Shown here in pieces: positions 1,218 through 5,906 of a stretch of 11,311 nucleotides of DNA. Under the pieces are notes generated by a model. The model made no database searches, had not been told where the DNA came from, and saw only the letters and a list, made by a program, of their open reading frames with translations. The translations under genes were made by a program, and so were the position numbers. The DNA is from a bacterium. Its GTDB lineage: Bacteria; JACRDZ01; JAJRWM01. The number at the start of each line of letters is the position of its first letter. The first letter of the stretch is position 1. Where the stretch lies: the NCBI GenBank assembly GCA_024276815.1, contig JAJRWM010000094.1, positions 1 through 11,311 of the forward strand, in the 5' to 3' direction.

Positions 1218-2206
1218 ATGATCGGAAATAACTCCCCTGAGCATCTTAAACGTATCTTGGTTACAATTTTATTTTTTTATTAATTATTTCCGGGATTGCC
1301 GGTTGCCAGGCGGAACCGGAAGAACCCGTTTTCAAACCTGAGGTCAAAGTCTGGCCCCAGGACTTTGTTATCGCTTTAATTCCTGAACAAAATATTTTCA
1401 CCCAAAAGAAACGCTATCAACCTATCTGTGACTATCTGAGTAAAAAATTACAAAAAAACGTGAAAACCAAAATACTGGAAAGCTATGGAGCTATCTATAA
1501 ACAAATGAAGGACAAAAAGGTAGACGCCGGTTTTTTTGGCAGCTTTAATTTCACCCTGACCCATTATAAACTGGGAATCGTTCCTTTGGCCAGGCCGGTC
1601 TGGCTTAATGGGAAATCCACTTACGCCGGCTATATTTTTACCCGTGAGGACAGCGGTATTTCAGCGGATATCAAAGACTGGCGGGGCAAAACACTGGCCC
1701 TGGTCCATCCCTATACCACCGCCGGCTACTTCTTTCCCCGCTGGTATCTCTTTGAGCGGGGAATAGACAATCTGGACGCCTATTTTAAGGATGTTATTTT
1801 TACCGGCAGTCATGACACGGCGGTATTGGCGGTTTTTAACCAGGAAGCTGAAATCGGCGCGGCCAAAAACCACATCTTTAATAAAATGATCAAAGATAAC
1901 CCTGAAATGAAAAAAGCCCTGCGGATCCTAGCGGAATCAAAAACTGTGCCGTCCAATGGACTGGCGGTCAGAAAAGACATCCCTGAATCAATTCAGGACA
2001 AACTGAAACGTGAATTGTTAAACATGGATAAAGACCCCGCTGGAAAAATTGTTTTAAAAAAATTCGGCGCGCTTAAGTTTATCGAAACGACAAACCAGGA
2101 CTACGATCCGGTACGGGAGATGATCGCTCCGCTGAACATTGACTTAAACACGTTTGAGCCGGCGAAAGCCCGTCATAAATATCTCGGGGAGATCAATGCG
2201 AACTAG
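1218..2206 (+). CDS. PhnD-type periplasmic substrate-binding lipoprotein, with a one-base frameshift in the signal peptide
   Basis: The open frame ending at 2206 encodes a phosphate/phosphite/phosphonate-type binding protein (PhnD-like family). Segments such as VDAGFFGSFNF, KDWRGKTLALVHPYTTAGYFFPR and SHDTAVLAVFNQEAEIGAA are typical of the two-lobe fold. In this frame a lipobox, LIISGIAGC, ends at Cys codon 1304-1306, but no start codon precedes it. The start (ATG 1218, MIGNNSPEHLKRILVTILF) lies in another frame. One extra T in the seven-T run at 1272-1278 would join them into a normal lipoprotein signal peptide. As written, only an internal start such as ATG 1460 would work, and it would lose the export signal. 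The gene overlaps the kinase gene by 11 bases, and no ABC permease or ATPase is nearby. It is therefore probably a ligand-presenting subunit of the sensor, not a transporter part. The ligand is unknown. Confidence 0.75.
2186..2198 (+). promoter_or_regulatory. Ribosome binding site that fixes the kinase start
   Basis: GGGGAG at 2186-2191 lies four bases before ATG 2196. The frame stays open upstream to a TTG at 2154, but that start would add 14 polar residues before the membrane segment and has no comparable binding site. The site lies inside the last codons of the binding-protein gene, so the two genes are probably translationally coupled. Confidence 0.6.
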
Positions 2207-3950
2207 GCTGTTTACCGCTCTCTTCATTTTAACTGTTTACCTGTTGACAATGGGATTTGTCTTGATAAAAAACGTCCAGAAACTGGCGTCCTTTGAAGCA
2301 ATATTGTTAAGGGAAATTGAAATCCAGGAAATAATCAACGACCTGGGAACTAATATTTATCGAGCGCAATTTTATGTTTATCAAAGACAATCCGGCGAGG
2401 AATTTGATAACGACCGGATAATAAGCAGCATTACCTCATTTGAAACAGATTTGGCTAAACTTGCCGAGCTATATCAGTTTAATATCAATGTCGAGCGGCA
2501 AAACTGCCTGCACTGCCATGTCGCTATCGATGACAATCTTGGCAATATGGAGCAAAAAATCCAGGATATCGACCCGCTCCTGACCAATTATAAACAAAAC
2601 ATCTCAAGCCTCTTTACTTCACTTGACGCAAAACGTAACGAAAAAATAATAAACGATATCAAAAAGTTTGGTAACAAGATAATTTCAGAGATGAACTATA
2701 TTCACCATATCTCCAATCAAATGCTTAACGAACTGGACATCGAGACCCGCAAAAACTACCTGGCAGTCAACAACCAGATAATCCTGACTTTGGTCCTGGG
2801 CATAATAATCAGCATAGCAATTATCGCCTATCTCATAGTTTACCTGACCGCCGACATTAAAAGACTGGTTCAACAGATTAATCTTCTTGCCCAGAACGAT
2901 TTCTCCGAACCCCTTGCCCTGGAAAAAACTGACCAGGAAATGAGGCCCCTGGTTGCCACCTTTAATAAAATAATTGAGGAATTAAAATCAAGAGAGTTTA
3001 AACTGAAAGAAAACGCCAAGGCCATTAACCAGGCTAACGCCTACCTGGAAAGAATAAAACTAACCCTGGAAGATAAAGTAAGGCAAAGGACAAAAGAACT
3101 GGATCAAACCAATAAGGAGATAATCAGCCATCAGCTAAAATTAGAGGCGACTTATTCCCAACTCCAGGATCAAACCAGGGAACTGGAAGAAAAAAATACT
3201 CGCTTAATGGAGTTGGATGGTATGAAGTCTGAATTCATTCAAATGGCAAATCATGAAATACGTACGCCAATGGTAACGATTAAAGGCTATACCGAACTCC
3301 TGCTCGGTGGCCGGTTTGGTAAATTACCGGAAAAAGCCCTGAATTGTTTGCGGATTATGGAAAGAAGCATCAATCGCTTAACCAAAGTATTGGAAAACAT
3401 CCAAAATTATTCTTTGGTTGAGAAAAAACGCTGGCAGCCTGACTTTTCAGAAATTGATATCAACGGTCTTTTCAGAGATGTCTATAATGACATGCGGATA
3501 ATCACTGAGAAACGAAATCAAAACCTCAGAATGGAACTGCAACCGTCATACCCCAAAATTATCTGTGACCGAAATCAAATTTACCAGGTAATGGTCAACC
3601 TGGTAATAAACAGCATCCGCTATTCACCTGACCAAAGTGATATCACCATCAGCGCTCGCTATGAAAAAGAAACTCAGGAGATTATCTTTTCAGTCCAGGA
3701 TACCGGTATGGGAATTGAGCAGAAGGAACTCAAGAGAGTGTCTTTACCTTTTTATGAAATCAAAAATATCCGGGAACACCACAGCGGTACGATAGAATTC
3801 AATTCAGCGGGCACCGGCTTGGGACTGGCTATTGTTAAAAGAATCGTGGAAAACCACAACGGACATGTCTGGGCGGAAAGCGCCGGGTTATGGAAAGGCA
3901 GTACCTTCAGCTTCTCACTCCCCCTGAAACCCAACAAGTCTACGACTTGA
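2196..3950 (+). CDS. Membrane sensor histidine kinase with a periplasmic-side CXXCH heme motif
   Basis: From ATG 2196 the protein is 584 residues. TM1 is about residues 5-24. A mostly helical outside domain (25-194) carries CLHCH (Cys104, Cys107, His108), a c-type heme attachment motif. TM2 (about 195-217), HAMP (about 218-270) and a long coiled coil (about 270-345) follow. The HisKA phosphoacceptor is His353 in ANHEIRTP. The ATPase domain shows the N box NLVINSIRYSP, DTGMGI (from 502) and GTGLGLAIVKRI (from 539). It would autophosphorylate and pass phosphate to a response regulator. The overlap with the PhnD-type lipoprotein gene suggests that protein docks on the outside domain. The heme could add redox or gas sensing, but heme attachment is not proven. 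No regulator is adjacent; the NtrC-type gene at 7197 is the nearest candidate. The last codons (K-S-T-T-stop) lie in the palindrome that begins the repeat array. Confidence 0.9.
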   Translation: MRTRLFTALFILTVYLLTMGFVLIKNVQKLASFEAILLREIEIQEIINDLGTNIYRAQFYVYQRQSGEEFDNDRIISSITSFETDLAKLAELYQFNINVERQNCLHCHVAIDDNLGNMEQKIQDIDPLLTNYKQNISSLFTSLDAKRNEKIINDIKKFGNKIISEMNYIHHISNQMLNELDIETRKNYLAVNNQIILTLVLGIIISIAIIAYLIVYLTADIKRLVQQINLLAQNDFSEPLALEKTDQEMRPLVATFNKIIEELKSREFKLKENAKAINQANAYLERIKLTLEDKVRQRTKELDQTNKEIISHQLKLEATYSQLQDQTRELEEKNTRLMELDGMKSEFIQMANHEIRTPMVTIKGYTELLLGGRFGKLPEKALNCLRIMERSINRLTKVLENIQNYSLVEKKRWQPDFSEIDINGLFRDVYNDMRIITEKRNQNLRMELQPSYPKIICDRNQIYQVMVNLVINSIRYSPDQSDITISARYEKETQEIIFSVQDTGMGIEQKELKRVSLPFYEIKNIREHHSGTIEFNSAGTGLGLAIVKRIVENHNGHVWAESAGLWKGSTFSFSLPLKPNKSTT

Positions 3951-3953
3951 GGA
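3935..3953 (+). repeat. Left terminal inverted repeat of the array, over the kinase stop codon
   Basis: CAAGTC-TAC-GACTTG (3935-3949) is a perfect 6-bp stem with a 3-base loop. Extended to 3953 (ending TGAGGA), it matches the reverse complement of 4320-4338 at 17 of 19 positions. The two differences fall at paired stem positions (A-T here, G-C at the right end), so pairing is kept. The kinase stop TGA is at 3948-3950. Confidence 0.75.
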
Positions 3954-3957
3954 TGCT

Positions 3958-4338
3958 TGCCTTCGGCACTTTCAAATTCACTCGCAAAGAGTTGCCCGCT
4001 CAGTATTGCCTGGCACAGAGCCGAATACTTTTATGAGGTGGTGGTAAAATGACGCGAAGCGATACTTCCTCAGGTCGTAGACCTGCCTTCGGCACTTTCA
4101 AATTCACTCGCAAAGAGTTGCCCGCTCAGTATTGCCTGACACAGAGCCGAATACTTTTATGAAGCGGTGGTAAAAATGACGCGAAGCGATACTTCCTCAG
4201 GTCGTAGACCTGCCTTCGGCACTTTCAAATTCACTCGCAAAGGGTCGCTCGCTCAGTATTGCCTGACACAGAGCCGAATACTTTTATGAGGTGGTGGTAA
4301 AATGACGCAAAGCGATACTTCCTCAGGTCGTAGACCTG
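3958..4338 (+). repeat. Three tandem copies of a 126-127 bp unit
   Basis: Copies run 3958-4083, 4084-4210 and 4211-4336, with the last palindrome finishing at 4338. They differ by only a few substitutions, all transitions, and one extra A in copy 2 (the TAAAAATG stretch). Each copy ends in the palindrome CAGGTCGTAGACCTG (4071-4085, 4198-4212, 4324-4338). Each also holds other short inverted repeats: GCC-TTC-GGC, ACTC-GCAAA-GAGT (copies 1 and 2), AGTATT with AATACT, and GAAG-CGATA-CTTC. No T run follows the palindromes, so they are not standard intrinsic terminators. There are no unique spacers, which rules out CRISPR. No transposase is present; a MITE- or REP-like element, or local tandem duplication, are possible origins. 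Confidence 0.9.
4049..4289 (+). other. Two tandem 37-codon reading frames inside the repeat array (coding doubtful)
   Basis: ATG 4049 to TGA 4160-4162 and ATG 4176 to TGA 4287-4289 each give 37 residues, starting MTRSDTSSGRR and ending LTQSRILL. GAGGTGGTGG or GAAGCGGTGG lies a few bases before the ATGs. A third start at 4302 runs on into sequence antisense to the GH57 gene. Differences between the copies change amino acids (KELPA against KGSLA), which argues against selection on the peptide. They could be by-products of the repeat. Confidence 0.2.
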
Positions 4339-5906
4339 TAAACGCGGTAATCAATATCCGGGAAGATATTGTTTCGATATTCCAAATCAGCCAGGTATCC
4401 TTCGTCAATCCGACCGTTCCTGATCTGTTCGTAGAGCCGGTTAAAATGAGTAATATGATCCTTGGTTCTCTTGACGGCGTAATCCACCATGGTCCCGGTT
4501 TTCATGATAAAAGCCCAGTCGCTACTTTGAGCTAATAACAACTCGCGAGCCGCCTGGTTGAGAGCGCGGTTCCGTAACAAATCCGGAGTTGGGTTGGCTT
4601 CCGCCAGTTCAACCATGCGCTCCGCCATGATGTGTAAATGACGGTAAATCCAGTCATTGCTGCTTTCCAGCCAGACCTCGCAATAGCCCTTATGCCCCCA
4701 ACTGGAGAGAGATAGGTTGACGACCTGATTTTGGGGATTCTCACGCAAATACTCGGAAGGCGTTATCATCCTGACTATATCCTGGTCATAATGAAGTTTG
4801 CGAATCAGATAGTTAAGCCAGTCCGGCCCCTCATACCACCAATGACCGAACAGTTCAGCGTCGTACGGAGAAAGAATAATCGGTTTCTTCCCCATGAATC
4901 CCTGAAGATGCTCAATCTGCTTTTGACGGTTGTAAAGAAAATTACCGGCATGTTCGGCGGCCTTGTCCAGAGCCTGACGCCGATCGTAAGGCTCTTTATA
5001 ATCACCATTCCCGGTTATTTTATAGTACTTGATGCCAGTGTTAATCCTCAGCCACTGATCGTGGATGTAAGGCTTGACATACTCAAAATCCAGGTCAAAA
5101 CCGATATCCCGGTAAAACTCACGGTAGCTGAAATCCCCGGGATAACCTTCCTCCGCGCTCCAGACCTGCTTGGAAGACTCAACGTCCCGGCCGAAAGCCG
5201 CGACGCCGTTGCGGGTATAAACCGGCGCGAAGATACCATAGCGCGATCTGGGGGAACCATGCAGAATACCGTGAGTATCCACAATAAAAAATCGAATGCC
5301 TTCATCTTTCAGGATGTTCTCATCACCGGGCTTGTAGCCGCACTCAGGCAACCAGATGCCATTTGGTTTGCGGCCAAAATGCCTCTCATGGGATTTAACC
5401 GCGACCCGGATCTGGGCCTTGGTCGCCCGCTCAAAAGTTAAAGGCAAAAAAGCGTGAGTCGCCCCGCAGGTTATTATCTCAAGCTTACCGGCATCCTGAA
5501 ATTTCCTGAAAGCGGCAACCAGGTTCTTATCATATTTTTCCACATAGATACGCCGAACATCCAGAAACTCGTTTAAATACATATGAGCGTTTCGATTCAT
5601 CGCCGGCTCATGCCTGGTTCGCTCAACTTCTTTGCGCGCCAGCTCAATCAAGCGCTCCAGGTGCCGCAGATAACGATTCTGCAATAACTCGTCGCTCAGC
5701 ATGTGAGCCAGCGGCGGCGTTATCGACATGGTTATACGAAAATCCACGCCGTCGTTTAAAAAACCATCAAAGATCCTGATTAAAGGGATATAAGTTTCCG
5801 TAATCGCTTCATACAGCCAATCCTCTTCAAGAAAATTCTCGTGTTCCGGATGGCGCACATAGGGTAAATGCGCATGTAAAACCAGTGATAAGTAGCCTTT
5901 TTCCAT
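4323..5906 (-). CDS. GH57 glycosidase, probable 1,4-alpha-glucan branching enzyme (DUF1957-type)
   Basis: A 527-residue protein of the usual length for bacterial and archaeal GH57 branching enzymes. The N-terminal strand LSLVLHAHLPYVRHPE is the family signature. The expected nucleophile is Glu188 in GIWLPECGY. The expected acid/base is Asp349 in SPYDAELFGHWWYEGP. The tryptophan-rich C-terminal helical region (SSWGHKGYCEVWLESSNDWIYRH) and the ending NIFPDIDYRVY also fit. Branching enzymes cut an alpha-1,4 glucan and rejoin it by an alpha-1,6 bond, making glycogen-like polymer in the cytoplasm. The ATG at 5906 has AGAGGA upstream. The gene follows the DUF4912 gene by 77 bases on the same strand. 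The final residues R-S-T-T and stop come from the last palindrome of the repeat array. Activity other than branching (amylase-type) cannot be excluded. Confidence 0.9.
   Translation of the reverse strand: MEKGYLSLVLHAHLPYVRHPEHENFLEEDWLYEAITETYIPLIRIFDGFLNDGVDFRITMSITPPLAHMLSDELLQNRYLRHLERLIELARKEVERTRHEPAMNRNAHMYLNEFLDVRRIYVEKYDKNLVAAFRKFQDAGKLEIITCGATHAFLPLTFERATKAQIRVAVKSHERHFGRKPNGIWLPECGYKPGDENILKDEGIRFFIVDTHGILHGSPRSRYGIFAPVYTRNGVAAFGRDVESSKQVWSAEEGYPGDFSYREFYRDIGFDLDFEYVKPYIHDQWLRINTGIKYYKITGNGDYKEPYDRRQALDKAAEHAGNFLYNRQKQIEHLQGFMGKKPIILSPYDAELFGHWWYEGPDWLNYLIRKLHYDQDIVRMITPSEYLRENPQNQVVNLSLSSWGHKGYCEVWLESSNDWIYRHLHIMAERMVELAEANPTPDLLRNRALNQAARELLLAQSSDWAFIMKTGTMVDYAVKRTKDHITHFNRLYEQIRNGRIDEGYLADLEYRNNIFPDIDYRVYRSTT

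Follow-up and report, generated by a model that had tools for sequence, protein, structure and literature searches.

Several families of short repeats are known to lie against the ends of bacterial genes. GTAG/CGTC REPs are stem-loops with a conserved foot tag, and their subfamilies differ by complementary changes in the stem (Di Nocera et al., 2013, PMC3733652). They are found mostly between convergent or same-direction genes, less than 20 bp from the 3' ends of both neighbors, and the GTAG termini often provide a TAG stop codon (Di Nocera et al., 2013, PMC3733652). REPINs are inverted pairs of REPs around a spacer, which are predicted to fold as one and also form tandem clusters (Bertels and Rainey, 2011, PMC3116915). 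The enterobacterial RU-1 (127 bp) and ERIC elements are MITE-like and can fuse to gene 3' ends, replacing the normal stop; the tails gained through such RU fusions are comparatively long, for instance about 34 residues in the amidase ECA3499 (Delihas, 2007, PMC2759123). For E. coli REPs lying within 15 nt of a stop, ribosome stalling and lower expression have been reported (summarized in PMC12306157).

The window considered here is the whole of contig C15 (11,311 nt) of a 91% complete assembly (2.39 Mb, 246 contigs) from an uncultured lineage. About half of the genome (~1.14 Mb) was read as stretches for the counts of hairpins, clusters and stop codons given below; because the first 20 stretches were picked for carrying the repeat, these densities are not genome averages. 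ORFs of at least 90 aa were called mechanically by a simple longest-first rule. The window holds two convergent genes: a histidine kinase with HAMP, HisKA and HATPase_c domains (2154-3950, plus strand) and a GH57/1,4-alpha-glucan branching enzyme with Glyco_hydro_57 and BE_C domains (4323-5906, minus strand), whose nearest named relatives are ~68% identical and spread over many phyla. No Rfam family match was obtained anywhere in the whole window.

Between these genes lies an array made up of a left hairpin and three units of 126-127 bp. It starts with the palindrome CAAGTCTACGACTTG (3935-3949, plus strand; CAAGTC-TAC-GACTTG) and ends with the palindrome CAGGTCGTAGACCTG (4324-4338, minus strand), each with a 6-bp stem and a 3-nt loop. 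The left hairpin is followed by the linker AGGATG (3950-3955), a foot tag common to most family hairpins, and hairpin, linker and TTGCCTTCG together make up the left 31-nt inverted-repeat arm (3935-3965). On the plus strand, unit 1 (3958-4085) carries the terminal hairpin CAGGTCGTAGACCTG at 4071-4085, unit 2 (4086-4212) its terminal hairpin at 4198-4212, and unit 3 (4213-4338) closes with the right terminal hairpin. The three units had been recognized in the preliminary description and are borne out by TRF (3.0 copies, 95% matches, 3958-4338), by repeat spacings of 126 and 127, and by pairwise identities of 94.5-95.3%. Inner units are without the left hairpin and the AGGATGCT linker, the right hairpin of the preceding unit serving instead. 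Full-length units elsewhere in the genome are ~76-79% identical to the unit described here, whereas those within the array are ~95% identical to each other, and the array is therefore a local amplification. Its outer ends are inverted repeats (20-nt arms 90% alike, 31-nt arms 77%), both of which read, from outside to inside, hairpin and then AGGA. As described earlier, the outermost 19 bases agree at 17 positions and both differences preserve stem pairing: the A/G and T/C differences are partners of one stem pair, and each hairpin is therefore perfectly paired.

The last codons of both flanking genes lie inside these terminal hairpins. The kinase ends ...PNKSTT-stop and the GH57 protein, on the minus strand, ...YRVYRSTT-stop; K-S-T-T-stop is encoded by the left hairpin with base 3950, and R-S-T-T-stop by the right hairpin with base 4323. 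The palindromes had been thought to encode S-T-T-stop and R-S-T-T-stop in full, which holds for the residues but not for the stops, as each TGA comprises the last two palindrome bases and one adjoining linker base (3948-3950 and 4325-4323), the first A of the AGGATG linker completing that of the kinase. With this one-base correction, the preliminary description of the array is accurate in every detail.

The array belongs to a family dispersed through the genome. A search of the 2.39 Mb with the array gave 61 related matches, an iterated HMM gave 48 element clusters in the ~1.14-Mb sample, and a genome scan for the motif CARGTCTRCGACYTG, allowing at most one mismatch, returned 34 hits, the reversed motif used as control returning none. 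Of the 48 clusters, 23 lie between same-direction genes, 10 between convergent and 4 between divergent genes, the remainder lying either within called ORFs or at the end of a contig. Perfectly paired hairpins with a 6-bp stem and 3-nt loop start with CAG 45 times and with CAA 34 times in the sampled half, compared with 6-16 for most other start triplets and 24 for the low-complexity TTT; 66 of these 79 CAR hairpins are extragenic or at a stop codon. The family is thus interspersed and almost wholly extragenic. Copies include single hairpins and many partial mosaics, and repeats of 31 bp, 52 bp and ~120 bp are arrayed at other loci, among them tandem arrays of 4 x 52 bp in L182 and 3 x 52 bp in L185. 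The unit matches its own opposite strand and is therefore a long imperfect palindrome; unit 1 pairs end to end (z -3.7). A small ORF in the element body (MLAFGT...) was dropped as a candidate, its reading frame not being kept between copies. Against 60 other genomes the array gave one match, of 33 nt and at chance level, and the family is absent from the three closest genomes compared, which are related at the level of phylum only.

Family hairpins follow the pattern CAR-N3-TRC-N3'-YTG, a 6-bp stem and 3-nt loop (mostly TAC or TGC) with a foot of AGGA or ACCA. When hairpins were located by the 3' linker alone, an anchor that does not require pairing, the recurrent stems were CAGGTC/GACCTG, CAAGTC/GACTTG, CAAGCG/CGCTTG, CAGGCT/AGCCTG, CAAACC/GGTTTG, CAAACT/AGTTTG and CAAGCT/AGCTTG; nearly all are fully paired, and the family has at least eight perfectly paired stem sequences. 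This covariation (GTC/GAC, GCG/CGC, GCT/AGC, ACC/GGT, ACT/AGT) indicates that the hairpin itself is maintained. Template-switch correction of quasi-palindromes can maintain pairing, and upkeep here is either by that route or by selection. Among 60 element-associated hairpins, a purine precedes the hairpin in 54, and the 3' foot is AGGA in 29 and ACCA in 7. The GTAG/CGTC foot tag was not found among the 60 hairpins, apart from one chance CGTC, and naming the family by that tag was rejected since the feet are AGGA/ACCA.

How closely are these hairpins tied to stop codons? For the 926 genes of the sampled half genome whose 3' ends could be read, CAR hairpins start, relative to the end of the stop, at -16 in seven genes, at 0 in six, at +1 in one and at +2 in four, and all other offsets between -20 and -1 are empty; control hairpins turn up at isolated, scattered positions. 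The stop is touched by 13 of the 79 perfect CAR hairpins and by 0 control hairpins. With one hairpin counted per gene, 11 of 37 downstream hairpins begin 0-2 nt after the stop, where the available intergenic space predicts 2.1% (p=1.5e-10), and all seven that overlap a gene end sit at -16. This is the sole frame in which the hairpin followed by A gives an immediate TGA; at the kinase/GH57 locus either of the remaining frames would lengthen the protein by more than 30 residues, and no case of such read-through with perfect hairpins was found. The seven -16 genes are mutually unrelated. Besides the kinase and GH57 genes, the hairpin supplies the stop of UvrB (...LRKSTT), a periplasmic binding protein (...IHRSTT), MazG (...GRLTA), an exchanger with TrkA_N and EIIA domains (...YSRLTA) and the convergent neighbor of this exchanger (...SKRTA). 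In at least seven genes, then, both the TGA and the final 3-4 residues come from the terminal hairpin. A related hairpin supplies TAG to a DRTGG-domain gene (...KLTGR).

Ends of homologous proteins were compared for GH57, UvrB and MazG. None of 87 GH57, 29 UvrB and 29 MazG homologs has an STT or LTA end or the hairpin, and 47 of the 87 GH57 homologs stop exactly three residues earlier, at ...DYRVYx. Given the mostly shorter ends of GH57 homologs, the element probably took the place of the native terminus, and it lies no further than one or two codons from the native stop.

The same genome provides a matched control. A second family is a conventional 122-bp MITE (GTAACSCGTCAG...CTGACGSGTTAC) with terminal inverted repeats GTAACSCGTCAGT...ACTGACGSGTTAC; 16 full copies are present in the sampled half (L173 5388-5509, L177 5147-5268, L190 15904-16025 and L224 7251-7372, among others), 12 of them with 8-bp target-site duplications. 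The 3'-facing gene ends lie 9, 14, 40, 54, 74, 109, 151, 336, 361, 424 and 798 nt away from its copies, so that 0 of 11 are flush, compared with 18 of 44 in the hairpin family (one-sided Fisher p ~0.007, calculated by hand and with a small control). Flush placement is therefore not general to any insertion in this genome.

Taken together, the array probably stems from local amplification of one copy of a REP/REPIN-like family that is spread over the genome and sits at gene 3' ends. The preliminary description had proposed a REP-like, non-autonomous element that gave new stops on both sides, and this is still the best reading: both checks that it had named as able to refute it came out in its favor, since the unit recurs across the genome and GH57 homologs lacking the array, mostly three residues shorter, do not end in S-T-T. 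The element would consist of two short inverted hairpins, foot tags inward, around a body of ~95 nt. Its ancestor may have inserted where the kinase and GH57 genes met, displacing both native stops, and would have been tolerated because one of the three frames into the hairpin stops at once (K/R-S-T-T-stop, R-L-T-A-stop or K-R-T-A-stop). Unequal recombination could then have expanded the single element to three units, with inner units sharing the hairpin of a neighbor. By analogy with E. coli REPs, the transcribed hairpin at the stop probably affects termination or mRNA 3'-end stability. Mobility itself is suggested by the interspersed mosaic copies within one assembly.

Why such an element should sit so exactly at stops admits another answer, namely that the insertion machinery prefers stop codons or an end-of-gene context and selection plays no part. 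The sharp pile-up at offsets 0-2, absent from the second mobile family, speaks for this, as does the purine before 54 of 60 hairpins, which is also what ends every stop codon. However, a purine also precedes hairpins inside arrays, the hairpin-supplied class has no native stop, and the bases preceding it vary (AA, TA, CG, CA, AG, GG) with no fixed target word. Moreover, the pattern would look no different if selection favored a hairpin at the stop or if DNA between stop and element were trimmed away, and we regard precise targeting as unlikely. The fuller proposal of a mobile hairpin element that is directed to stop codons, lands flush, and takes the place of the stop or comes after it while leaving the protein unharmed seems more improbable again. 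It is possible, if doubtful, that the whole quasi-palindromic unit of ~146 bp is instead a non-autonomous DNA transposon of ERIC/MITE type moved by a cut-and-paste transposase. The unit self-matches on both strands and has inverted ends, several copies fold better than shuffles (z -3.2 to -3.7), and fusion to gene 3' ends is likewise known for the 127-bp RU-1 elements of enterobacteria (PMC2759123). Nevertheless, other copies show no such advantage over shuffles (z about 0 to -1.8), and single hairpins and partial mosaics occur as in REP/BIME families. While 12 of 16 copies of the true MITE have target-site duplications, none is visible by eye at the kinase/GH57 locus (left flank AAACCCAA, right flank TAAACGCG) or at L174 7519-7717, nor is any apparent at the doubly flush loci. 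An ERIC-like TA duplication, hinted at by a few flanks (L174, L175), was set aside because the bases before stop-supplying hairpins disagree.

Two further explanations were weighed. Dedicated 3'-end signals, whether terminators or mRNA stabilizers, might have arisen in place, which would accord with hairpins exactly at gene ends, with stem pairing kept by compensatory changes, and with the preference for convergent and tandem over divergent gaps. Yet the hairpins are followed by AGGA/ACCA or TTTTA rather than a T-run, only tens of genes carry one while homologs are without it, and unrelated loci share the ~95-nt body and linkers beyond the hairpin; this last point already disfavors an origin in place, which we consider very improbable. 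Finally, S-T-T could be a native, conserved end whose palindrome was copied from one gene to the other. The 17 of 19 bases shared by the two hairpins at the locus would fit such a history, which is scarcely credible all the same: it is refuted by the GH57 homologs, none of which ends in this way, and the same tail ends UvrB, the periplasmic binding protein and others in this genome. A palindrome duplicated only from one gene end to the other, which the preliminary description had offered as its second option, is likewise superfluous because the same palindrome ends unrelated genes (UvrB, MazG, periplasmic binding protein and exchanger).

Set beside the described systems, the REP/REPIN-like family shares with GTAG/CGTC REPs short stem-loops with a conserved foot, complementary stem variants, a location chiefly between convergent or same-direction genes, placement at gene 3' ends and the supply of stops. 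It differs in its foot (AGGA/ACCA, or TCCT/TGGT read the other way), in a supplied TGA that lies at the non-tag side of the element, and in a position locked to -16 or 0-2 nt. No intact RAYT/Y1 transposase was found in the 91%-complete assembly, and this and the missing GTAG/CGTC tag set the family apart from GTAG/CGTC REPs. The inverted hairpin pair around a spacer resembles a REPIN, but here the ~95-nt spacer body contains conserved motifs, there are many mosaics and mixtures of hairpin types, and no partner RAYT was found. Compared with RU-1, the tail is only 3-5 residues because the stop lies in the first hairpin; the RU-1 lineage is unrelated to this bacterium, and the likeness is drawn from its description. 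Unlike the E. coli REPs near stops, the hairpin here overlaps the stop or begins directly after it. The genes of integron cassettes also end in palindromes (attC core GTTRRRY), but no such core stood out in the element stretches that were read. REPs that supply stop codons are already published; what is new is a foot tag of its own and a tighter stop register. With this family, the range of REP-like repeats grows to include an uncultured lineage, in which the foot tag is different and no RAYT is visible. The family also provides an unusually clean case, with an internal MITE control, for asking whether such repeats hug stops through targeting or selection. Finally, it illustrates how several unrelated proteins can have their C-termini rewritten by short mobile sequences, each receiving the same 3-4 residues.

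A number of other loci deserve mention. A broken fragment of an IS200-like Y1 transposase (Y1_Tnp; MNIKRLSHAVYDTKYHLVWAPQYHK...) with an internal stop is present at L061 (C210 1282-1434), with no family hairpin within the locus; the search for a RAYT mobilizer in the 91%-complete assembly yielded this broken fragment alone. ORFs at L278 (891-2744) and L288 (1313-2677) end ...RDF-stop at TTTTAA in or beside an element (CGCGACTTTTAA), which is another way in which the family supplies a stop. At L178 (4021-6660), an 880-aa ORF, CBS-like and poly(A)-polymerase-like as judged by reading the sequence, ends within a reversed element body (ATCTCGTAA). On the minus strand at L223 (~166), a gene whose end reads ...GACACCAGCTAA continues into an incomplete copy of the 122-bp MITE, which may supply the last residues and TAA stop of that gene. 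About 20 copies of a repeat containing CAGGTTGAGATAGAATACAGT occur on a single contig (L232, C48), and probably constitute a CRISPR array.
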